Virus record (IMG/VR): IMGVR_UViG_3300022200_006438
Span: 1 to 23,955 of that record
Source of the DNA: a virus
Length of the DNA: 23,955 bases
Strand: one strand, 5' to 3'
The translations under genes were made by a program, and so were the position numbers. Below the pieces are notes generated by a model. The model searched no databases. It was given only the letters and a program-made list of their open reading frames with translations, and was not told the origin of the DNA. This document shows positions 3,056 to 23,955 of the stretch, piece by piece (position 1 is the stretch's first letter; each line of letters starts with the position of its first letter).

Positions 3056-3277
3056 ATGGCCGATGATGCAGATGACGCCCAAACGCAGATCGACCTACAT
3101 ATCGCAGCAGCAATAAAGCTACGCAAGCAATATGCTGGCGTGTCTAACGAATTCTGTGAAGAATGTGAGGAGCCTATTCCCGAAACACGACGTAAACTTC
3201 TTCCCGGAATAACTCTGTGCGTAGAGTGCGCAGAATTATCCGAGAAGCTTTCTAGACTTAATCAACTACAAATCTAG
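3056..3277 (+). CDS. TraR/DksA-type C4 zinc-finger protein
   Basis: This 73-aa protein has AAAGGAA shortly before the ATG. Cys34-E-E-Cys37 and Cys55-V-E-Cys58 with 17 residues between form the C4 zinc finger of the TraR/DksA family. The length matches phage and plasmid TraR-like members (about 70-75 aa), which lack the long DksA coiled coil. TraR binds the RNA polymerase secondary channel and mimics DksA plus ppGpp. Here the N-terminal helix starts with an acidic MADDADDA segment, as expected for residues reaching into the channel. A role in reprogramming host transcription is plausible but not shown. The last 20 bases overlap the end of the convergent giant gene. Confidence 0.8.
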   Translation: MADDADDAQTQIDLHIAAAIKLRKQYAGVSNEFCEECEEPIPETRRKLLPGITLCVECAELSEKLSRLNQLQI

Positions 3278-6200
3278 CGCCCGGAACGGTGCGGGCTACT
3301 ACGTCACCGAAATCGGTCCGTGGATCGCCAGTAAGCCAATTTGCAATATCAACGGCGTGTTCAGCGGTCGGGCCAGCAAAGCTGAACCCAGGAACACCGC
3401 CCCGGCCTGCATCGCCAATAGCCTCTGCGCCAAATTCAAACTTACCGAGAATCCCAGAACGGGCTACTGCGTGCCCGAAGTGGTCGTAGAAATCCCAGTT
3501 CTGCGGCACTGACCCGGTAAGCACCCATTTCGCCATATCTGCCGCGAACATAACGGGTACGTATGCAGCTAACATGAGCATGGGCTGGTCATTCCCCTGC
3601 TTAGCCTCCGCCAGCGCTCTGGCTAGAATCACTCTCTGGAACGAGTACGCAAACTGCTTTAGGTGGGAGATCAACATGAATCTAGGGTCTGACATCCACG
3701 TAGCACGCTGCGAGGCGCTCGGACGAATAACCGCGCCATCTACGAACTTGAACATCGCTTGAGACACTCGTTTGAACGATTCTGGTCCTAGAGTATCTGC
3801 GTCTACGATCAACCTGCCATCATTCGACACCTGAATGTCTTCCGGGCGAAGCCCGAGTTCATTCATGCGGCGTTCGTCATCCTTGTACTGAATAACATAG
3901 CGCTCCCCGGCTACAGTAGCCGCGATACGCATGGAGTTGTTCCACCCCTGCATACCGTTGAGGCGGAAGAACGCTCTGTTGATATTACGAGTAGCACGAG
4001 TCATATACATGCTGCCGTATGTCTGCCCCATGGCCTCCATCATGCTGTCTTCGTTAATAATCCCCAGCATTCTGGTCATTTCGCGGTCGTAGTCGAAGCT
4101 CTTATCCTTCGTAATCGTGCGACGGAGGTCTTTGAGGGCACGCTTATATCCTTCGCCAGCCTCTTTAATGTTCCCCGTACGGACAGCGATTCCGAGCGGG
4201 TCTACCATTTGAGAGAAAATAGCTAACGGTAGCAACACCATGTTCTGAAGAGTCATGACCGAGGCCTGAATCTCTTTCATGCGTACCGACATATCGTTGC
4301 CGAGAGACCCTTCTAGTGCACGGATGTTGGTGGCGGCTTCTGCTAGGGTCACTTGGTCAACCCCGGTATCCGCCGCTTTCGACAATAAGTTAGTGATTAC
4401 TTCGCCGTTATTCCCGAAAGTACGGGCATATTCCCCTCGATGCACTGCCTGCTTAATGTATCCGCCGACGGCATCATTAAGATCCTTGGACTGAAATTCA
4501 GCGAACTCAGCGGCGTTGCTCTCGTTAATGAATTTGAGAGAGCGGTCCTGCACATTAGCGTGGAACGGAGTGAACCCCAGGTGATGCTCGGTTTCGGCCA
4601 GTTCGAGTCGACCGTCCCCACTGAGAATAGCGTCAGTAATGGCACTAGCCTGCTCTGGTGGGACGTATTTGTTCAGCAGAGCTTCCCATTCCCCTCGTCT
4701 GGCGGAAATTGTAGATTTATCCCAGACACGCGGGTAGTAGTTCTCTACTTTAGGTATTCTCACCCATTGATCTTGCTCGGCATCAAACCGCATGACCCCA
4801 GCTTCGTCCATGTAGGTGTATAGGTCGGAGAACAGCTCTGCTAGGTCCTTTTCAAGCTGAGTTTCTGGCTTCTTCATCGATTGAAGATTCGTAACAGCGT
4901 TTTTGCGCTGCTGCTCAGTCGTGCCTTCGAGAATATCCTGCAAGCGGTTGCCGAAAACGCCTTCCTGCTGGAAGCGTGCCTGCAGGAACTCCAGCCCGCC
5001 TTCTTCACGACCCACGCCACGCTCGAACATGTCTGCTACTTCTACCAGCTCAGGGACACCAGTATCTCTTAGGCGGTCGGTAGGAGAGCGGAACACTTTG
5101 CTCATACCGCGGGCAAACGGAGCCGCTACTCTATCCAGTTTATCCGACAGGGTTTCTACGCCCTTCTCACGGAGTACCTGAGTCACGGTGTTGGGGTCGG
5201 TCAATTCGCCTTTATGTAGGGCTACAAGAACCTGTTCGATTTTCTCGTCCTTAGAGAGTACTCCGAACAGATCTCTGAAAAATGCAGCAACCTTCTGGAA
5301 GAAACTCTCGGCTTTTGGAGTCAGCGACAGCTGACCGGCAGCCCAGAATTGATACATATACGCTAAGCGTTCTTCCTGACTATCCTTAATCTGCTGGAGG
5401 GCAGCTGGGTGTCCTTTCAATAAGGTACGCAGCTGATTCATCACGAACGGGGAGCTAGCTACGGCCAGCATCTGTGCTTTCAGATTGCGCGCCGCTTTTT
5501 CCATTCCGAGGGTGAGGAAGAAATCATGCAGTGACTCGTGCCAAGCTACGGACGTAGGATCAGCTGCTGTTATTGCGATGCGGATGAAGCGTTCCTTAGT
5601 TTTAGGATTCATCTCATATTCGCCAGCCGCTTTCAGATCAGCGAATTTTTCAAACGCGACAACCACATCTGGACCGCGAGTACGGAGAATCTCGTCAATC
5701 GCCGCTTGCTGCTGCTCTTTCGTAGCAGCCTTAGCCGCAGGTTCCTGCAGCGACGCTCTCTGAATCACCCAATCTCTGAGCGCTTCGCGCTCAGCCGCTG
5801 TCATATCAGGGTTTTGTTCTAAGAACTTGTTGATGAACGCCTCAGCCGATGGGGCGGCTTTGGGAAGTCCGGTTTCCTCAGTCGCCGCCAAAGCAGCAAC
5901 TTGGCGAGCGAAGTCTTCCATGCTGCTGGATAACCTTGACTTCTCTTCTGCGGCCAACGCAGTTGGAGCCGCCCTCTCGCCCGGGGCAAGCTTAGGTTCC
6001 GGCAACGGGGCTTTCTGTTCTGCCTGCATAGCGGGGGCGGTACGACCCACGCGCTCAGCGCCTTGAAGCGCCATGCCAGTATCTTCTTCTGCGAAACGAG
6101 GCCCGAGTTTAGGAGCAGTATCCCCAGGCTCGGTGGTTTCTAGCTGACTGGGATCGAAATCTTCTCTGGGGTTAATCCGTCCCAAGGCCGCGGAATAAGC

Positions 6201-8561
6201 ATCCATGAGCCTGCTGAGCCTGTTGCGCTCACGCGCATCGGCCGGTACTCCGCGCTCAGCTCCTAGATTCTCGTATCTAGTGGCAGCGTTTTCGTACCTA
6301 TCTATAAGAGCCTGTTCAACAGCGCCCGCAGTAGCTGGATCGTTAGTCTCAGTAGCGGTATACAGTTCTACCAGCGCCTCGATATTACTACGAAGCTTTG
6401 AGTAGTTGTTCTCGTCGTTCTGCAGCCTAGTTACGATCTTGCCTGAGCGTTCGGCGTCTATGGCGCTTACCGGAGTAGCTCCGCGAAGCCCAGTTTTACG
6501 GTCTAGCAGAACACTGTCTAAGTTTGTTTCTACACCGGCTACGTCCGGTCTGGCGAGAATCGACGCAACCGCCTCGCTGAACAGTCTCTGGGCACGGCGC
6601 GCATAATTCTCGCCACTGCCAGTACCTTCTTTGTCGCCTTGCGTCTTCCACATGGACTCGGCGGATAGCGTGCGGACGCTCCCATCCTGCATGCGGAAAC
6701 GTACGCGAGTGTCACGGATTTTTTGGTTGTACTCGCTACTCGCTTCTCCTCTGCCTCTGCGCTCACTCTTTAGTAGACGCCCCATCTGGGCGAACTCTCG
6801 GTCAGTAGCTTCTAGCGGGTTGGCCTCGGCATCGGTTTGTTCGATAACCTGGTACTGGTTAAGGGCTGCTTTAATACCTTGAGATTCACGGGTAGCCTCA
6901 ATCAGTGAACGTTCCCCCTGCAGAGACTGAATAGCTTGCCTGCGATCCTCGCCCCTACGAGCTTGGTTTTGAGCGATACGGCTATCAATATCGGCAAGTC
7001 TTTGGTTATACAGCTGTTCTAGATTTTGCCCCTGCTGCTCGGCGGCGTCGCCAAAACCTACAACACGGGCGTAAGTACCGCCAAACCTAGCCTGTCTGGC
7101 AGCCTCGGCTTCAGTAACTTTTTTACCAGAAGCTGTTTCCGTAGCGACGAAAGCACGAAACGGGCGACCTGTAGTAGGTTCAGAATATGTATACCGTTCC
7201 CGCGGTGCGGTCTCTCGTGCGGCCATTCCTGGCTCGAACTCAGCCGCTGCTTCTGCAACCTGTTGTCCAAACGGTGAAACAGTCGCCTGCGCCATCTCAT
7301 CGTTCTGCTGGGCGTAGTAATCGAGTACTTTACGGGCCTTGGTAAAAGATCCGAATACAGGGGCTAGGTTTTCTAAGATGCGGTTCTGCTGCGCAGCAGT
7401 CATGCTCTCGAAACCCAAGGCGTTGTTATCTAAGTAGTTCGCTAAGTTCCGCTTGCTGGTAAAATCCAGTCCTTGTAACTGCGGGACAAGATTCTCTTCC
7501 AAGAAACTAGCGCCCTGCGACTCAGTTACATCGATAGCCGCTGCCTGCGGCAGCATATCCTCGACGCCTTCTAGACTCTGGCGCCTGGTCGGTCCTAAAG
7601 CTACCGGCGCGGCGGCGTCTTGCCTTTGCCCTTCTTCTTGCAAGCCATATTCAACTCCTGATTCGCGTTGAGGGATAGACGGTTGCCGCCTACCGCCACC
7701 CAATAAGATATCGAGGGTGGCGCCGCCGATGCCGCCAGCATAAAGGTTCTCTAAGTATTCTTGCGCAGTAGCGTTAGGGCGATCCGGAACATACTGCCCA
7801 CGAGCGAACTCGCCAATGCCAAACTGGGATACTTCGGTGCCTGCTTCTACGCCGGCTGACAGGGGAATAGATGCGTATCTAGGAAGGCGATTAAGAACCC
7901 TGCCGCCGATAAGCCCGGGAAGAGCCGCTTCAAAAGCAGTTTGTCCCAGAGCAGACTCGCTAGCTAAGTCAAGTTTCTGTTGAGCAGTAAGACCTTGGAG
8001 AGTAGGGTCATAGGCAATGTCGGCCTGCTCTGCACCACGAATAGTTCCGTATGACGGAATAGCGGCACCAATAGCTGCTTTCAGCGGGCGGAGTGGCCCG
8101 GGCAGAAGGCCGCCAGCAATACCGCCGACAAGAGGGTCAAATGTAGACCCCACAGCACTGGCGGCGGTGTTGGCGAAGTAAGACGCCCAATCCCCAGTTC
8201 TAGCGGCTTCTTCAGCGGTTGTGGCACCGCTAGGCTGAAAAGCCCTAGCCCTAGATTCTGCAATATTTATATCCTGCAGCGCTCTGAGCCTAGCTTCCTC
8301 ATCACCTGCTACCTCTGCCTCAAGGGCGCGGCGATGAGCCTCACCAAGCTGTACTTGGGCTCTCGGTGATTCAAGAGCCCGTAGAACGCTAGGAGTCTGC
8401 TGCGCTTGGCGCTGGGTTTCTCTGGCGTACCACTGCTCTAACTGGGCTCTAGTCGCTCCTAGCGGCGCTCCCCTATTAAGCTGCAAATGGTCTGTAAGGT
8501 CGGTTTGGCCTTCAGGTACCTGCGCTCTCAGGGGTGAGAAAAACTGGGGAGGGGTTGGCAT
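3258..8561 (-). CDS. Giant virion (probable ejection) protein with HExxH metallopeptidase motif
   Basis: This 1767-aa protein is the largest in the window and the last gene of the late block. Residues about 1-115 are Gln/Arg/Ala-rich and helical. About 125-290 contain several Gly/Ala/Pro-rich hydrophobic stretches, such as GGIAGGLLPGPLRPLKAAIG. The centre is Ala/Glu/Arg-rich. HESLH at 1008-1012, followed by EERLAY at 1063-1068, fits a gluzincin-like zinc protease (HExxH plus downstream Glu). The C-terminal third resembles the large polyvalent phage proteins (LPD38-like), with a hydrophobic segment (LMLAAYVPVMFAADMAKWVL) near the end. Size, position beside other virion genes and composition suggest a protein packaged in the capsid and ejected with DNA. 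The start is ATG 8561, which has no Shine-Dalgarno sequence, so coupling to the upstream gene is likely. Confidence 0.8.
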   Translation of the reverse strand: MPTPPQFFSPLRAQVPEGQTDLTDHLQLNRGAPLGATRAQLEQWYARETQRQAQQTPSVLRALESPRAQVQLGEAHRRALEAEVAGDEEARLRALQDINIAESRARAFQPSGATTAEEAARTGDWASYFANTAASAVGSTFDPLVGGIAGGLLPGPLRPLKAAIGAAIPSYGTIRGAEQADIAYDPTLQGLTAQQKLDLASESALGQTAFEAALPGLIGGRVLNRLPRYASIPLSAGVEAGTEVSQFGIGEFARGQYVPDRPNATAQEYLENLYAGGIGGATLDILLGGGRRQPSIPQRESGVEYGLQEEGQRQDAAAPVALGPTRRQSLEGVEDMLPQAAAIDVTESQGASFLEENLVPQLQGLDFTSKRNLANYLDNNALGFESMTAAQQNRILENLAPVFGSFTKARKVLDYYAQQNDEMAQATVSPFGQQVAEAAAEFEPGMAARETAPRERYTYSEPTTGRPFRAFVATETASGKKVTEAEAARQARFGGTYARVVGFGDAAEQQGQNLEQLYNQRLADIDSRIAQNQARRGEDRRQAIQSLQGERSLIEATRESQGIKAALNQYQVIEQTDAEANPLEATDREFAQMGRLLKSERRGRGEASSEYNQKIRDTRVRFRMQDGSVRTLSAESMWKTQGDKEGTGSGENYARRAQRLFSEAVASILARPDVAGVETNLDSVLLDRKTGLRGATPVSAIDAERSGKIVTRLQNDENNYSKLRSNIEALVELYTATETNDPATAGAVEQALIDRYENAATRYENLGAERGVPADARERNRLSRLMDAYSAALGRINPREDFDPSQLETTEPGDTAPKLGPRFAEEDTGMALQGAERVGRTAPAMQAEQKAPLPEPKLAPGERAAPTALAAEEKSRLSSSMEDFARQVAALAATEETGLPKAAPSAEAFINKFLEQNPDMTAAEREALRDWVIQRASLQEPAAKAATKEQQQAAIDEILRTRGPDVVVAFEKFADLKAAGEYEMNPKTKERFIRIAITAADPTSVAWHESLHDFFLTLGMEKAARNLKAQMLAVASSPFVMNQLRTLLKGHPAALQQIKDSQEERLAYMYQFWAAGQLSLTPKAESFFQKVAAFFRDLFGVLSKDEKIEQVLVALHKGELTDPNTVTQVLREKGVETLSDKLDRVAAPFARGMSKVFRSPTDRLRDTGVPELVEVADMFERGVGREEGGLEFLQARFQQEGVFGNRLQDILEGTTEQQRKNAVTNLQSMKKPETQLEKDLAELFSDLYTYMDEAGVMRFDAEQDQWVRIPKVENYYPRVWDKSTISARRGEWEALLNKYVPPEQASAITDAILSGDGRLELAETEHHLGFTPFHANVQDRSLKFINESNAAEFAEFQSKDLNDAVGGYIKQAVHRGEYARTFGNNGEVITNLLSKAADTGVDQVTLAEAATNIRALEGSLGNDMSVRMKEIQASVMTLQNMVLLPLAIFSQMVDPLGIAVRTGNIKEAGEGYKRALKDLRRTITKDKSFDYDREMTRMLGIINEDSMMEAMGQTYGSMYMTRATRNINRAFFRLNGMQGWNNSMRIAATVAGERYVIQYKDDERRMNELGLRPEDIQVSNDGRLIVDADTLGPESFKRVSQAMFKFVDGAVIRPSASQRATWMSDPRFMLISHLKQFAYSFQRVILARALAEAKQGNDQPMLMLAAYVPVMFAADMAKWVLTGSVPQNWDFYDHFGHAVARSGILGKFEFGAEAIGDAGRGGVPGFSFAGPTAEHAVDIANWLTGDPRTDFGDVVARTVPGARFVVD

Positions 8562-18788: not shown

Positions 18789-19034
18789 TTACCACTTGAC
18801 GCGGTTAGCCCAGTAGGCCGCCGACATCTTGCCTTTGGCGATGTTCTTAGCATGTCGCGCTTGGAACGATTTTCTACGTAGCCGACTCTTTTCTGATTCA
18901 CCTTTCTTATGCGGAGACCCAGATACGCCCTGCTGCCCGAACCTAATGACCTTTTCTTTACCGCCAGAGCACGCTTTTACGACGTGGGATTTCTTAGGAT
19001 GCCCGGTCGTGCGTCTAGGCTTATTACAAGGCAT
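18789..19034 (-). CDS. Small basic MPCNKP-type phage protein
   Basis: This 81-aa protein starts at ATG 19034 with TAAGG five bases upstream. The frame is open to an ATG at 19073, but that ATG has no ribosome binding site. The sequence (MPCNKPRRT, SHVVKACSGGKEKVIRFGQQGV, RKSFQARHAKNIAKGKMSAAYWANRVKW) fits a widespread phage family of unknown function whose members begin MPCNKP and end in AAYWAN-VKW. It is strongly basic, with Cys3 and a second Cys near 25, suggesting binding to DNA or the virion interior. Confidence 0.8.
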   Translation of the reverse strand: MPCNKPRRTTGHPKKSHVVKACSGGKEKVIRFGQQGVSGSPHKKGESEKSRLRRKSFQARHAKNIAKGKMSAAYWANRVKW

Positions 19035-19081
19035 ATCTGCCTTAGAGGCTCTGCGTAAAGATGATCTAGACATACCGTCGA

Positions 19082-19474: not shown

Positions 19475-19579
19475 TTACAGTGCCGCGAAACGATCTATCG
19501 GTGCACAACCAGTTGTACCGACCAAGAACAACAATATAAGAACTACTAGCGACCATTGCAAAAAGGTTTTGGTAGTCAT
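19475..19579 (-). CDS. Tiny lipoprotein (34 aa)
   Basis: This ORF is 34 codons from ATG 19579 to TAA 19477-19475. Residues 8-24 are hydrophobic (QWSLVVLILLFLVGTTG) and Cys25 follows TTG, giving a lipobox-like site that would leave a mature peptide of only about 10 residues (CAPIDRFAAL). Its start overlaps the stop of the 60-aa membrane protein by one base (TAATG). That is the usual order for an inner-spanin/outer-spanin pair, though both are unusually short. An entericidin-like small lipoprotein is an alternative. Confidence 0.55.
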   Translation of the reverse strand: MTTKTFLQWSLVVLILLFLVGTTGCAPIDRFAAL

Positions 19580-19761
19580 TAGGTCAATCTGTCCTCAAGT
19601 CGGTGTAATTCAGTACGAGTCACACAATCCCTGGCCATTTCCTCCCTTGTTTTGTTTAGAAGAATCTGGATGCGGTGAAGCTCAGTAGTTTTTTCTCGTA
19701 AAAAATACCCAACTACTATAATCAAGACTGTCAGCAGTAAGTTCCATAGAAAGTAGTCCAT
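19579..19761 (-). CDS. Small N-terminally anchored membrane protein (i-spanin-like candidate)
   Basis: This 60-aa protein has a transmembrane helix at about residues 4-21 (FLWNLLLTVLIIVVGYFL). A charged helix then runs to the end (REKTTELHRIQILLNKTREEMARD...LHRLEDRLT), with heptad-like Leu/Ile spacing. An N-terminal anchor plus coiled-coil ectodomain is the shape of an inner-membrane spanin, but typical ones exceed 90 aa. Its start overlaps the upstream lipoprotein stop (TGATG), and its stop overlaps the start of the tiny lipoprotein. Spanin function is inferred from shape and order only. Confidence 0.6.
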   Translation of the reverse strand: MDYFLWNLLLTVLIIVVGYFLREKTTELHRIQILLNKTREEMARDCVTRTELHRLEDRLT

Positions 19762-20000
19762 CAGTTTTCCCTAATGCAGACCATATCGGGCTGGCGTCCA
19801 CACCAGTCGGTTAGCTCAAGTGTACCGTAAATCCTACGTTCTTCTTCAGTATATGTAAGCTGTCGCAATTCTGCACAACCAGTTAGGGTGCTGGCAACGA
19901 CCACCCCGGCCAGCACGGGTCGCAAGTACCGGGTCGCTCGAAACTGGTGGCCTACTCCCCCGTCCTGAGATGCACGGTGTGTGTTTAAGGTTTCGGCCAT
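19761..20000 (-). CDS. Small lipoprotein
   Basis: This 79-aa protein has a signal segment at about residues 25-41 (YLRPVLAGVVVASTLTG) followed by Cys42. The lipobox L-T-G-C is canonical. The 41 residues before the Cys are long for a lipoprotein signal, so translation may begin further in. The mature part (about 38 aa) has two more Cys near its end and acidic Glu/Asp residues. It is translated right after the 162-aa membrane protein (TAATG overlap) and before the 60-aa membrane protein. It could be an outer-membrane partner in lysis or an exclusion lipoprotein. Not resolved. Confidence 0.65.
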   Translation of the reverse strand: MAETLNTHRASQDGGVGHQFRATRYLRPVLAGVVVASTLTGCAELRQLTYTEEERRIYGTLELTDWCGRQPDMVCIREN

Positions 20001-20488
20001 TAACTCTTACCGAGGTAAAAGCTGCCCGCTGCGAGGATCGAAATTTTGATCCAGTCGAATGCCACAACGGCATTCTCCAAGCGGACAAACTCAGTCACGG
20101 TCTTGGTGGTGTCGATAATGCCGAGGAAGTTGAAGCCCTTGGTCACTTCGACCGGGACGACCACATCAAAGCCACCTTGTGCGGCAGTCAGAAGCAGCCA
20201 GCCGAAGTAGAGCATTGCCGCCACGAACACGCGGCGTGCCCACGGAGACCACTTATCCACGCCCACACGAGCTGCGGCAGCATTGGCAGATTCTGTAGCT
20301 GCTTTCTGGTCTGCGGCTTTTACTTCCTGCTCACCACGCATCATTTCAAGCTGATGCTTTTGCAGCTCCATCTGCTGACGCTGCGCTTCAGCCTTGGCTT
20401 TCTGGCCGGTGCTGATGAATTTAGAGACCATGCCGAGGACGCTGCCTCCGGCCATGACGGCGATTTCTGGACCTAGTGCTTCAAGCAT
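20000..20488 (-). CDS. Membrane protein, holin-like candidate
   Basis: This 162-aa protein starts at ATG 20488 behind AAGGGAG. The open frame extends upstream to 20569 but lacks a comparable site. A weak hydrophobic N-terminus (about 5-24) precedes a Gln/Glu/Lys-rich helix (27-70). A membrane helix (about 86-105, VFVAAMLYFGWLLLTAAQ) and a C-terminal hydrophobic segment (about 143-160, WIKISILAAGSFYLG) follow. This resembles phage holins of the three-span type, but no diagnostic motif is visible. It is followed with one-base overlap by lipoprotein and membrane-protein genes, which supports a lysis-cassette reading. Confidence 0.55.
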   Translation of the reverse strand: MLEALGPEIAVMAGGSVLGMVSKFISTGQKAKAEAQRQQMELQKHQLEMMRGEQEVKAADQKAATESANAAAARVGVDKWSPWARRVFVAAMLYFGWLLLTAAQGGFDVVVPVEVTKGFNFLGIIDTTKTVTEFVRLENAVVAFDWIKISILAAGSFYLGKS

Positions 20489-20639
20489 GGTTGTCTCCCT
20501 TACAGTCTCTGGCGAGACAGTTGTAAATAGACTGAAGTACCCCCACCACTCTGCGACGCTTTGTATCATCTGGGCTTACCAGCGCCTCAATGGCTTCAGC
20601 AAGACCATCCATCAGGTCCCGCTTTTGATCGTCACTCAT
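20481..20639 (-). CDS. Small soluble helical protein, function unknown
   Basis: This 52-aa protein starts at ATG 20639, in a region with GGATGGAG just upstream. An ATG at 20645 (54 aa) is the alternative. The frame is open upstream to 20918, but there it lies inside the EF-hand gene, so only the downstream part is likely coding. It is charged and helical (MSDDQKRDLMDGLAEAIEALVSPDDTKRRR, shown in part) with two Cys near the end. It overlaps its neighbours by 8 bases on each side, so coupled translation is likely. Function unknown. Confidence 0.6.
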   Translation of the reverse strand: MSDDQKRDLMDGLAEAIEALVSPDDTKRRRVVGVLQSIYNCLARDCKGDNHA

Positions 20640-20970
20640 CTCCATCCTTTTTTCCTTTCTTTTCCTTACCCTTGACGTAGGCATCTGCGCCGAAGAATGC
20701 TGAAACCACCAGCCCAACGGACATGAAGTAGACGCCAGACATGTCGCCAATGATCTTGGACTCGTTATCAAATCCGAGTGCGCCGCTGGCGAACACAAAC
20801 AATGGGTATCCAAGCATGCCGAACAACGCAAACCATACCATTTTCCTTTGCTGGTCACGCTTTGCGTCCTCATCTTCCATCTCACGACGGAGGCGCTCAA
20901 TGTGGATCTGGTATTCATTTGCGTCGATTTTGCCGTCGCCGTTTAAATCTGCTTTTTCAAAGTCGGTCAT
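20632..20970 (-). CDS. EF-hand membrane protein
   Basis: This 112-aa protein starts at ATG 20970 with AGGA eight bases upstream. Residues 8-19 (DLNGDGKIDANE) form a complete calcium-binding EF-hand loop with ligands at positions 1, 3, 5 and 12. A charged helix (about 22-43) leads to two membrane helices (about 45-63 and 76-96) and a Lys-rich tail. I recall EF-hand two-span proteins of this kind in marine phage contigs, without a known function. Calcium-linked control of a membrane process is possible. The upstream gene stops one base before this start region. Confidence 0.75.
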   Translation of the reverse strand: MTDFEKADLNGDGKIDANEYQIHIERLRREMEDEDAKRDQQRKMVWFALFGMLGYPLFVFASGALGFDNESKIIGDMSGVYFMSVGLVVSAFFGADAYVKGKEKKGKKDGDE

Positions 20971-20971
20971 G

Positions 20972-21409
20972 TCAGTTTCCTGATAGGGGATTATCCAGAG
21001 CCTTTTGCAATTTGTCCTCAAGCTCGGCTTTGGTGTCCTCCACCTTGGCCTCGAACTTGTCCATTTTATCCTCGAACCGCACGATCTTGTCGTTGACCCG
21101 CTTCTCGATATCGTAGGTTAGCTGCTTGGCATCCCTGAGATTCTGCTCGATGGACTCCAACAGTCTTTCCTGTGTCTCGATCTTGTTGCTGGTCTGCTCC
21201 ATCTGTGCGGCATAGGCTCCTAGATCAAGGCTGGCGATCTCTTCGACCTTTTGATACATGGTAAAGCCACCGTACAGCGCACCCAACACAGAGCCGATTC
21301 CAGCAATCGCCATGCCGATGGTAGTCGGGGTCATGCGTAGACCGAACAGGGTGAACGCCTTGTCTTTTAGCCCTTCGATCTCGTCCAGTTTGTCGCCTAA
21401 GTCAGCCAT
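20972..21409 (-). CDS. Single-span membrane protein with long coiled coil
   Basis: This 145-aa protein starts at ATG 21409 and has no clear Shine-Dalgarno sequence. A charged N-terminal helix precedes a membrane segment at about residues 28-50 (PTTIGMAIAGIGSVLGALYGGF). From about 55 to 140 a Lys/Glu-rich coiled coil follows (LLESIEQNLRDAKQL, EDKMDKFEAKVEDTKAELEDKL). The architecture is close to an inner-membrane spanin, and the size is normal for one, unlike the 60-aa protein further on. Alternatively it is a membrane scaffold protein. Context of consecutive membrane proteins supports an envelope role. Confidence 0.7.
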   Translation of the reverse strand: MADLGDKLDEIEGLKDKAFTLFGLRMTPTTIGMAIAGIGSVLGALYGGFTMYQKVEEIASLDLGAYAAQMEQTSNKIETQERLLESIEQNLRDAKQLTYDIEKRVNDKIVRFEDKMDKFEAKVEDTKAELEDKLQKALDNPLSGN

Positions 21410-21802: not shown

Positions 21803-21841
21803 AACCCCTGCTGGGCTTTTCCCGGTGGGGGTTCTCTTTTT
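21803..21841 (+). terminator. Strong intrinsic terminator oriented rightward
   Basis: AACCCCTGCTGGG (21803-21815) pairs with CCCGGTGGGGGTT (21821-21833) in a 13-base-pair stem with three G-T pairs and a CTTTT loop. TCTTTTT (21835-21841) follows. The T-run is on the + strand, so it stops rightward transcription, although all nearby genes run leftward. On the - strand the same hairpin follows the stop of the 136-aa gene but has no T-run. Confidence 0.75.
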
Positions 21842-22251
21842 CAATTCTCAAACCCTCCCTGCAATCTTTTAAGATTCTCCAACTCCTGTTGCAGCTTCAT
21901 CACCTCTAGTCGTCTGGCCTGAAGTTCCAGTTGGTACAGGGTATTGCAGTTGATCCGCTCTCTTGGTGCATCCAGCGGTATTACGATTCTTGCATATAGA
22001 CCAATGTCCTTGGTCTGCGGATTGTTCGGATCTTCACTGCCGAATGGGGTGACCGCATTATTCACAATCCCTGTTGCACCAATCTCAAAGTTGCTGGCTC
22101 CGCCAATGGCGTTCTTGCAGTCCAAATCCCCTGCCCTGAATGAATCCGTACCGTAGCTGCTACCAGCGTTGGGCAGTTGCAGGTTGAGCGAGGATGAATC
22201 TGCCATCGCTACCCCACAAAACATCAATGCTACTGCTGCAATTTTGAGCAT
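21841..22251 (-). CDS. Small exported protein with C-terminal coiled coil
   Basis: This is a 136-aa protein starting at ATG 22251. It has a Sec signal peptide (MLKIAAVALMFCGVAMA, cleavage likely after residue 17, before DSSS). The mature part has a Gly/Asn-rich beta-like middle (SFRAGDLDCKNAIGGASNFEIGATGIVNN) with Cys near 44. IGLYARIVIPLDAPRERINC follows, and the protein ends in a coiled coil (LELQARRLEVMKLQQELENLKRL). It would act in the periplasm or on the cell surface. I recall similar exported proteins in marine phages but know no function. It overlaps the upstream exported gene by 22 bases. Confidence 0.75.
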   Translation of the reverse strand: MLKIAAVALMFCGVAMADSSSLNLQLPNAGSSYGTDSFRAGDLDCKNAIGGASNFEIGATGIVNNAVTPFGSEDPNNPQTKDIGLYARIVIPLDAPRERINCNTLYQLELQARRLEVMKLQQELENLKRLQGGFEN

Positions 22252-22610
22252 ATCCGGCTCGCCAGTAGAGTGCCTGAACCATCACCACGCAGCTTGGACT
22301 GAGAGCAGACATAGGTTGCTCGATCAGCGTCAGCATTGCGGATATACACATCAAACTTCAGGTGTCCCAGATACCGCACATGAGCCACCCGATAGGCACT
22401 GACAAATGGGATGGGTTGCCAGTCCTCGGTGAATACGCCGATGTCGTAAAACTCCACATCCTGCCGCTTGTTGAATAACTCAAGGCTGGTCTTCATTACG
22501 CCAGTCACATGGGACGGTTTCAGCTTTGGATAAGTCGGAACCATCTCATGGGCAAACCCAGTACCCATAAAGAAAAGCAGGCATGTTACCGAAGCAACTT
22601 TCGGAAACAT
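22230..22610 (-). CDS. Exported periplasmic protein, function unknown
   Basis: This 126-aa protein starts at ATG 22610, overlapping the stop of the 54-aa gene by one base (TGATG). A Sec signal peptide covers residues 1-20 (MFPKVASVTCLLFFMGTGFA), with likely cleavage before HEMVP. The mature domain is mixed alpha/beta (VEFYDIGVFTEDWQPIPFVSAYRVAHV, YLGHLKFDVYIRNAD) with two Cys (YVCSQS and RICSKL) that could form a disulfide in the periplasm. It is one of three exported products in this stretch. Role unknown; envelope modification or late assembly is possible. Confidence 0.75.
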   Translation of the reverse strand: MFPKVASVTCLLFFMGTGFAHEMVPTYPKLKPSHVTGVMKTSLELFNKRQDVEFYDIGVFTEDWQPIPFVSAYRVAHVRYLGHLKFDVYIRNADADRATYVCSQSKLRGDGSGTLLASRICSKLQQ

Positions 22611-22774
22611 CAGTCGTAAAGCCCCATCTCTTGGGCTTCCTCTGCCAGCTTATCAAGCGCAACTAGTCGCTGATACTCTGCCATGTCGTGCTCGCCAATG
22701 GCTCGTCGCAGGGCGTCTGCGGCTTTCTCTAGGGCATCCACAGCCTGTACCGCAGTTTTTCGCCAGTCGCTCAT
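22610..22774 (-). CDS. Small helical protein, function unknown
   Basis: This ORF is 54 codons from ATG 22774 to TGA 22612-22610. It overlaps the upstream exported gene by 4 bases (ATGA) and the next gene by one base. It is Ala/Glu/Arg-rich and almost wholly helical (VDALEKAADALRRAI, then YQRLVALDKLAEEAQEM), so a short coiled coil or helical hairpin is likely. It has no signal although both neighbours are exported. Strict coupling on both sides supports it as real. Confidence 0.7.
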   Translation of the reverse strand: MSDWRKTAVQAVDALEKAADALRRAIGEHDMAEYQRLVALDKLAEEAQEMGLYD

Positions 22775-23265
22775 TGGGCGATACACTCCGCCACCACTAC
22801 TGCTCGATAAGTGCCACCCGGAAAGGCTTTATTGCCACCACCGCCATAGGTCGCTGTACTGGAAATCTGAAACCAAGTCGTACCTGTAGTAGTCAGGTCG
22901 TATTCCTTGGTCTGCTCATAGGTCACAGCATCCGTGTCATAGTCTGCCATGCCCACAGCAGATACCTCAGACACGCTTACAGCACCTGTCCAAGCCACCG
23001 CATCGCTCAGGCTAGGACTAGCAGAGAAGGCAGTCGGGTAGGTGATCTTAGCTTTGTAAGCATCTGCTAACGACACATCGTACCGGACGATTGGCAAGAC
23101 CCCGCCATCAGCAGGGGTAGTCGTCAGGGTGTAGGCATTCGGGTTTCCGTAGACACCCGCCACATCGGTGTTAATCAAGCAGCGGCTTTGTACTGTACCC
23201 TCGATGGGAACATCTACGGCATTTGCTGTGCCTGCAATCAGGCAGGCCAGTAGGATCTTCTTCAC
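22771..23265 (-). CDS. Exported beta-rich protein with a disulfide-type Cys pair
   Basis: This 164-aa protein starts at GTG 23265. That codon has AAGGAG eight bases upstream and overlaps the previous stop in a GTGA arrangement. An in-frame ATG at 23289 lies before the ribosome binding site and is unlikely. The signal peptide is (V/M)KKILLACLIAGTANA, cleaved before VDVP. The mature part is rich in Thr, Ser, Val, Gly and Tyr and clearly beta. One Cys lies near its start (RCLIN) and one near its end (AECIA), as in exported Ig-like or fimbria-like domains. A surface or receptor-masking role is a guess. Confidence 0.75.
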   Translation of the reverse strand: MKKILLACLIAGTANAVDVPIEGTVQSRCLINTDVAGVYGNPNAYTLTTTPADGGVLPIVRYDVSLADAYKAKITYPTAFSASPSLSDAVAWTGAVSVSEVSAVGMADYDTDAVTYEQTKEYDLTTTGTTWFQISSTATYGGGGNKAFPGGTYRAVVVAECIAQ

Positions 23266-23552
23266 TGTCGGATCTCCTTTATTTGCCATTCAAGTTCTTC
23301 AAGCAAATCTTCAATGGATTCGCCGTGGCCAGTTGCAAAGCCTTGGGAGATCATCCATGCAGCAATTTTTTCAACCGCTTCTTTCTTTGGTGGTGCGGTG
23401 TAGAGTGGGGTCATTCCTTCAAAAAGAATTTCACTAAAAGCGTCCTCTGGCCAAAGCTGACCATCTAACCATTTTTCTAGATGAACATATGCCACAGGTT
23501 TTTGTTCCGGTTGCGCTAGTGCTTGTTCGTGGTTGTAATCCATCATGCTCAT
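23262..23552 (-). CDS. Small phage protein with 'PVAYVH...TPLYTAPP' layout
   Basis: This 96-aa protein starts at ATG 23552 in an ATGA overlap with the ribbon-helix-helix gene. It has KPVAYVHLEKW near residues 18-28 and MTPLYTAPPKKEA near 47-59. A helical tail (AAWMISQGFATGHGESIEDLLEELEWQIKEI) follows. The 'PVAYxH...PLYTAPP' layout is that of a common phage protein group of unknown function, and the 79-aa protein at 21433 shares it. The gene is coupled on both sides and has no signal or span. Confidence 0.7.
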   Translation of the reverse strand: MSMMDYNHEQALAQPEQKPVAYVHLEKWLDGQLWPEDAFSEILFEGMTPLYTAPPKKEAVEKIAAWMISQGFATGHGESIEDLLEELEWQIKEIRQ

Positions 23553-23743: not shown

Positions 23744-23955
23744 CTATTTGTACTGCCCCTCAACCATCTGGTTGTGTAGTCGGTCATTCGCCATGCTGCG
23801 GAATGCCCGCTTGTTGTCCTTGATCTCACCACCTTGGAGTATTACGGTTTCCTTATACACTCCACCCGGTATATTGGCTGCATAATATTGAGTCATTGTG
23901 ACAGGATTCATCTGGGCAAGCATGCCTGTCTGACCCACTGCCATCTCCAGACCGC
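23744..23955 (-). CDS. C-terminal part of an unidentified phage protein (5' end outside window)
   Basis: The frame is open from the right edge to TAG at 23746-23744. An ATG at 23944 would give 66 aa, but GGAG lies directly against it, too close for a normal ribosome binding site. The protein therefore probably begins beyond the window. Visible features are GMLAQMNPVTMTQYYAANIPGGVYKETVILQGG and a charged C-terminus (SMANDRLHNQMVEGQYK). The pattern 'MNP-t--q-y---iPGG-Y-etV-L---i-DNk-a-r--A---LH--Mv--QY' recalls a phage C-terminal domain of unknown function. It precedes the regulator's promoter in the same direction. Confidence 0.6.
   Translation of the reverse strand, partial: GLEMAVGQTGMLAQMNPVTMTQYYAANIPGGVYKETVILQGGEIKDNKRAFRSMANDRLHNQMVEGQYK

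Follow-up and report, generated by a model that had tools for sequence, protein, structure and literature searches.

The closest described counterparts of the locus reported here are separated two-component spanins such as PseT.3/PseT.2 of phage T4 (compare Rz/Rz1 of lambda), PF11351 holin–endolysin pairs such as gp32–gp31 of roseophage CRP-810, class II holins such as the pinholin of phage 21, and the SAR and signal-peptide endolysins. A survey of two-component spanins found at least one Cys in 507 of 528 pairs, the commonest combination being none in the i-spanin and two in the o-spanin, as in PseT.3/PseT.2 (PMC6139136). Here we compare with these systems a run of seven genes from an uncultured marine phage. 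The window, by which we mean the whole stretch of DNA analysed, is the complete IMG/VR record IMGVR_UViG_3300022200_006438 of 23,955 bases, which is only a genome fragment. A first-pass annotation made from the sequence had likened the run to a lysis cassette with holin and spanin roles. We consider it probable that the run is the late lysis module of a phage of a Gram-negative host, a reading supported mainly by synteny. Synteny with hydrolases and the spanin anatomy of two members speak for the cassette, but the holin candidate gD fails both the PF11351 cut-off and a profile comparison. The module is unusual in its constant EF-hand member with two spans, in a lipoprotein that fronts a hydrolase in relatives, and in that no hydrolase was found in the window's branch.

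The seven open reading frames (ORFs) lie on the minus strand at 19475–21409 and have the lengths originally given (145, 112, 52, 162, 79, 60 and 34 aa); in order of transcription we label them gA to gG. Overlaps of 1–8 bases had been described for most junctions and are present at five of the six: gB–gC and gC–gD overlap by 8 bases, gD–gE, gE–gF and gF–gG by 1 base, and gA and gB are separated by a 1-base gap. Scans with gB and gD gathered 80 marine viral contigs, against which the window proteins were compared by tblastn. All seven ORFs have homologues in related contigs and are real genes. Homologues of gA, gB, gC, gD and gE are collinear in many contigs, and the order up172-up126-up136-gA-gB-(gC)-gD, which starts with three exported proteins encoded upstream of the run, recurs in more than 12 contigs at roughly 35–99% identity. 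The set conserved in relatives consists of gA, gB, gD and the lipoprotein; hydrolases share the module, some of them with this lipoprotein as a fused leader. At the gA–gB junction, some relatives carry one or two inserted genes that by eye are 2OG-Fe(II) oxygenase- or cupin-like, or HNH-like, and this junction looks like an insertion hot spot; oxygenase/cupin-like examples, also assigned by eye, are L007:8886-9999, L031:2149-2805, L017:8732-9986 and L038:8203-8754. The last of these phage contigs also has an ORF that by eye resembles a flavin-dependent tryptophan halogenase (L038:2610-3788).

The most constant feature of gB (20632..20970, minus strand; 112 aa), a candidate holin or holin regulator, is an N-terminal EF-hand (DLNGDGKIDANE) that precedes two transmembrane segments. 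Both parts had been read from the sequence and both stand: Pfam EF-hand_5 (PF13202) scores 27.5 bits (cut-off 25.9) over a canonical 12-residue calcium loop, and hydropathy places the spans at 47–65 and 77–95. The strict loop pattern D-x-[DNS]-x-[DNS]-G-x-[ILVM]-x3-E is kept in 63 of 65 distinct gB relatives, the loop of the other two being cut by the contig end, and this conservation argues for a calcium role. Basic residues precede span 1 and follow span 2, which is compatible with an N-in/C-in topology; the EF-hand would then be, and probably is, cytoplasmic. The two spans and the charge pattern liken gB to class II holins in topology alone, whereas gB is larger and carries the EF-hand calcium loop. 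In the open-access literature we found no description of EF-hand holins.

The first-pass annotation had proposed checking synteny in related phages, and the check came out strongly in favour of a link with lysis. A peptidoglycan hydrolase follows gB at a distance of at most 2 kb in 43 of the 73 loci that have at least 2 kb of downstream sequence; near-duplicate loci among the 73 make the independent number smaller, and the enzyme kinds are still unrelated. They comprise M15 peptidases of several kinds, GH108, GH19-like enzymes and T4-type lysozyme, that is, four unrelated catalytic kinds. In contigs L039–L050 the usual order is EF-hand protein, PF11351 holin and hydrolase, with the holin above the Pfam cut-off in the four contigs tested (E down to 1.5e-25). 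Cultured phages tell the same, the block being EF-hand/holin/GH108 in CRP-810, EF-hand/Rz-like protein/M15 peptidase in DC31 and EF-hand/spanin/endolysin in CRP-345, each with an annotated endolysin. Relatives of gB also occur in other settings. In the T4-like phages HTVC008M, Melnitz and phiN3 (L084, L085 and L110) the gB relative belongs to a baseplate-hub block, in which it follows a gp51-like hub-assembly gene, and is not beside an endolysin. Two contigs binned as a Rhodobacteraceae MAG (L115 and L116) carry gB relatives together with the exported set, and in L116 an exported SleB-like hydrolase, recognised by eye, adjoins the gB relative.

The spanin candidates are gA and gE. The first (20972..21409, minus strand; 145 aa) has one transmembrane segment (31–49), a predicted periplasmic coiled coil and the C-terminal end ALDNPL, and is the i-spanin candidate; homologues (36–99%) occur in ~30 contigs, and similar ends are found in HTVC115P gp49 and CRP-207 gp73. 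The second (19761..20000, minus strand) is a 79-aa lipoprotein and o-spanin candidate with the lipobox LTGC, assigned by motif and alignment, and a C-x7-C-I motif at its end. Mature gE has two Cys (67 and 75) besides the lipobox Cys 42, and gA has none. The features of two-component spanins found here are the transmembrane segment and coiled coil of gA, the lipobox of gE and one or more periplasmic Cys between the two proteins. As in PseT.3/PseT.2, a Cys-free inner-membrane coiled-coil protein would be paired with a lipoprotein bearing two periplasmic Cys, but here gB, gC and gD intervene, so that the two genes stand three genes apart, and in some relatives of the window the lipoprotein carries a fused endolysin domain. 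Matches of gA to Rz-like and spanin-like HMMs are weak and typical of coiled coils; what gA and gE display is the anatomy of a separated spanin pair, a fit of anatomy and not demonstrated sequence homology. CRP-207 gp73 (L082:3292-3873) bears the label 'putative lysozyme'; by eye it is not lysozyme-like and is a gA-type transmembrane coiled coil ending in DNPL, so the label is probably a misannotation and the protein was left out of the hydrolase count.

In relatives, the lipoprotein is recognised by a lipobox and C-x(5-7)-C-I, and is encoded directly past gD or a few hundred bases further. It stands alone, as in the window, in 18 related loci and forms the N-terminus of a hydrolase in eight, representing six distinct proteins, with T4-type lysozyme in L019, L020, L026-L028 and L029 and with M15 peptidase in L041 and L054. 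In Pfam searches of the aligned lipoprotein set, three members matched PF00959 (best 1.9e-12) and two matched PF08291 (best 4e-21), and one fused sequence is identical across three separate metagenome records. No separate short gE-type lipoprotein was seen near the fused loci examined. The fusions are apparent lipoprotein endolysins. Like SAR and signal-peptide endolysins, they are predicted to be exported peptidoglycan hydrolases and bear a membrane signal at the N-terminus, but this signal consists of a lipobox with a Cys-Cys module after it, which implies lipid anchoring and not signal-anchor release. Lipoprotein endolysins are undescribed in the open-access text searched, and none was found in cultured phages. 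The lysozyme of Alteromonas phage P24 was tried as a candidate, as it aligns from the lipobox position, and was rejected because there is no lipobox ORF there.

The remaining holin candidate, gD (20000..20488, minus strand; 162 aa), consists of a helical N-terminal half and two transmembrane segments. Its description as multi-span stands as far as membrane spans are concerned, but just two are predicted by hydropathy (87–105 and 141–159); gB and gD thus have two predicted spans each, a holin-like feature of topology only. Relatives of gD are 31–91% identical. GTA_holin_3TM (PF11351) matches gD at E 0.0074 and 17.2 bits, below the cut-off of 24.8, and its relatives at an equally sub-threshold 14.9–18.5 bits. 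Comparison by hhalign with genuine PF11351 members gave 5%, not significant, and lent no support to membership of gD in that family; it is possibly a distant relative, at best a sub-threshold one, and we infer a holin function from its position and two spans. The order of EF-hand protein, holin-like protein and hydrolase slot is that of PF11351 holin–endolysin pairs, but gD lies below the cut-off with two predicted spans and the window has no hydrolase. Between gB and gD lies gC (20481..20639, minus strand), a 52-aa soluble protein with two Cys and no span by hydropathy, whose homologues (37–75%) occupy the same slot in L003, L005, L008-L010, L012 and L014. Past gE, gF (19579..19761, minus strand; 60 aa) has an N-terminal transmembrane segment (3–21) and a short helical tail, with homologues (42–57%) in five contigs (L007, L013, L015, L016 and L047). 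The last gene, gG (19475..19579, minus strand), encodes a 34-aa lipoprotein with a predicted mature peptide of 10 aa, in which hydropathy shows one signal-like segment that ends close to the lipobox Cys; its homologue in L011 (64% over residues 1–32) lies directly past gD.

No cell-wall hydrolase had been noticed in the run, and neither Pfam nor PHROGs gave a peptidoglycan hydrolase when the window's main proteins were scanned. Searches of the record with seven hydrolase families gave no match, although for GH19 the control gave none either; the families apart from GH19 were also absent from the close relatives G001-G009. Amidase_2 and SLT matches fell in large ORFs or on less closely related contigs, with none in close relatives. 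In the closest relative, G003 (41 kb, gA 99% identical), all 20 Pfam families of the mid-sized proteins were seen and no hydrolase was among them; for the whole ORF sets of G003 and G006, 25 of 54 families were listed. Among the ORFs of ~10 kb upstream in several relatives, no hydrolase was obvious by eye. Compared with a canonical holin–endolysin–spanin cassette, a hydrolase is thus lacking among the window ORFs and in the record and is present in many relatives. The first-pass annotation had advised a search of the rest of the genome for the endolysin; none was recognised in the 24-kb record, itself a fragment, or in G003, and the endolysin may lie outside the fragment or be of an unrecognised kind.

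Upstream of gA, the window encodes a set of exported proteins. Directly upstream, up136 (21841..22251, minus strand) has a C-terminal coiled coil and is conserved in this position; up126 (22230..22610, minus strand) has a predicted PapD-like chaperone fold; up172 (22771..23289, minus strand) is a beta-sandwich protein and weakly pilin-like; and the 3' part of a fourth (23747..23932, minus strand), cut by the contig end, is homologous to L007:6105-6980 (68% over 62 aa). The AlphaFold2 model of up126 (pLDDT 86) matches DraB in Foldseek (prob 1.0, E 1.3e-4) and PapD-family chaperones at a VIA Z of ~10, with MSP and ASH domains, which share the fold, scoring similarly, and has the predicted Ig-like fold of the first PapD domain. 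For up172 (pLDDT 84), the top Foldseek matches include pilin domains (that of PapG at prob 0.99), but with an E value of 0.012 and a VIA Z <8 the pilin-like label is tentative. The likeness to the PapD family lies in these predicted folds, but up126 shows one domain instead of two, with no second Ig-like domain in its 126 aa, the window has no usher-sized ORF, and the proteins are phage-encoded. With the three exported families as queries, sequence searches of the PDB returned no matches. Vibrio phage Bennett has relatives of up172 (gp148, hhalign 95%) and up136 (gp150, hhalign 98%), both encoded a short way upstream of the annotated holin and M15 endolysin of that phage; hhalign of gp149 with up126 was not significant. 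The order of the up126 and up172 pair is conserved upstream of the cassette in ~20 marine viral contigs.

As a lysis module, the run might act as follows. gB and gD would form the pair that permeabilises the inner membrane, gB being a calcium-responsive holin or holin regulator that senses calcium entering as the membrane starts leaking; taken by itself, this calcium-switch step seems to us doubtful, if conceivable. gA would serve as the spanin of the inner membrane and gE as the lipoprotein spanin of the outer membrane, with gC, gF and gG as accessory members. Relatives with fusions would cut the wall with an exported, lipid-anchored enzyme, and the window virus would use an unattached one, encoded beyond the fragment or of unrecognised kind. 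Marine phages of unrelated types might then share a calcium-responsive lysis switch, in which the EF-hand protein links lysis to leakage of the inner membrane in calcium-rich sea water, and part of the group would possess lipid-anchored endolysins, built from an o-spanin-like lipoprotein and unrelated hydrolases, with the window's branch keeping the lipoprotein without the enzyme. That this whole picture is correct we think rather unlikely.

A more ordinary lysis cassette, with a conventional endolysin past the contig end, a divergent but usual holin and spanin set and an EF-hand without regulatory role, is a serious possibility, short of probable. The record is after all a 24-kb fragment, and L023 and L034 have an M15 peptidase ~4 kb upstream of gB; on the other hand, the 41 kb of G003 and ~10 kb upstream in several relatives are without a recognisable hydrolase, strict conservation of the EF loop argues for a calcium role, and neither the EF-hand nor the lipoprotein-endolysin parts were found described in the open-access literature. 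Two readings place the genes outside lysis altogether. If gB and its neighbours served virion assembly or DNA entry as tail or baseplate membrane proteins, the link with endolysins would reflect late-gene clustering, in keeping with HTVC008M, Melnitz and phiN3, where hub-assembly and tail genes flank the gB relatives, and with the window, in which small ORFs come after the run and head-closure and tail genes after those. Clustering does not readily account for the several unrelated kinds of hydrolase that follow gB within 2 kb in 43 of 73 loci, or for direct fusion of the lipoprotein module to hydrolases, and we regard this reading as improbable.

The second of these readings is remodelling of the envelope, for example for superinfection exclusion or receptor masking: exported chaperone-like and pilin-like proteins would act with lipoproteins to change the cell surface during infection. 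Other phages are known to have small lipoproteins for superinfection exclusion, the set here includes several small lipoproteins, and up126 is PapD-like and up172 weakly pilin-like. However, endolysins occur alongside the gA-gB-gD-lipoprotein core in relatives, and the Bennett relatives of the exported proteins adjoin a holin and an endolysin, which leaves this reading very improbable. Should the lysis module and its calcium switch be borne out, an EF-hand membrane protein beside four unrelated lysin kinds would be a missing and widespread piece of marine phage lysis, gB one of few candidates for timing lysis by calcium, and the lipoprotein-hydrolase fusions a route of endolysin delivery distinct from the holin-released and SAR routes. 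The window's branch, with a lipoprotein and no enzyme found, raises the question of how the wall is cut.

Elsewhere in the window, the virion genes include those for a head-closure protein and for a 1767-aa protein (3258-8561, minus strand), the C-terminal part of which shares ~31% identity with structural proteins of Pseudomonas phage KPP25. This large protein is without a Pfam match and contains a zincin-like HESLH motif. At 18789-19073 on the minus strand lies the gene for a 94-aa basic protein (KSHVVKAC...IRFGQQG), which recurs close to the EF-hand gene in many marine phages, CRP-207 and CRP-345 among them.
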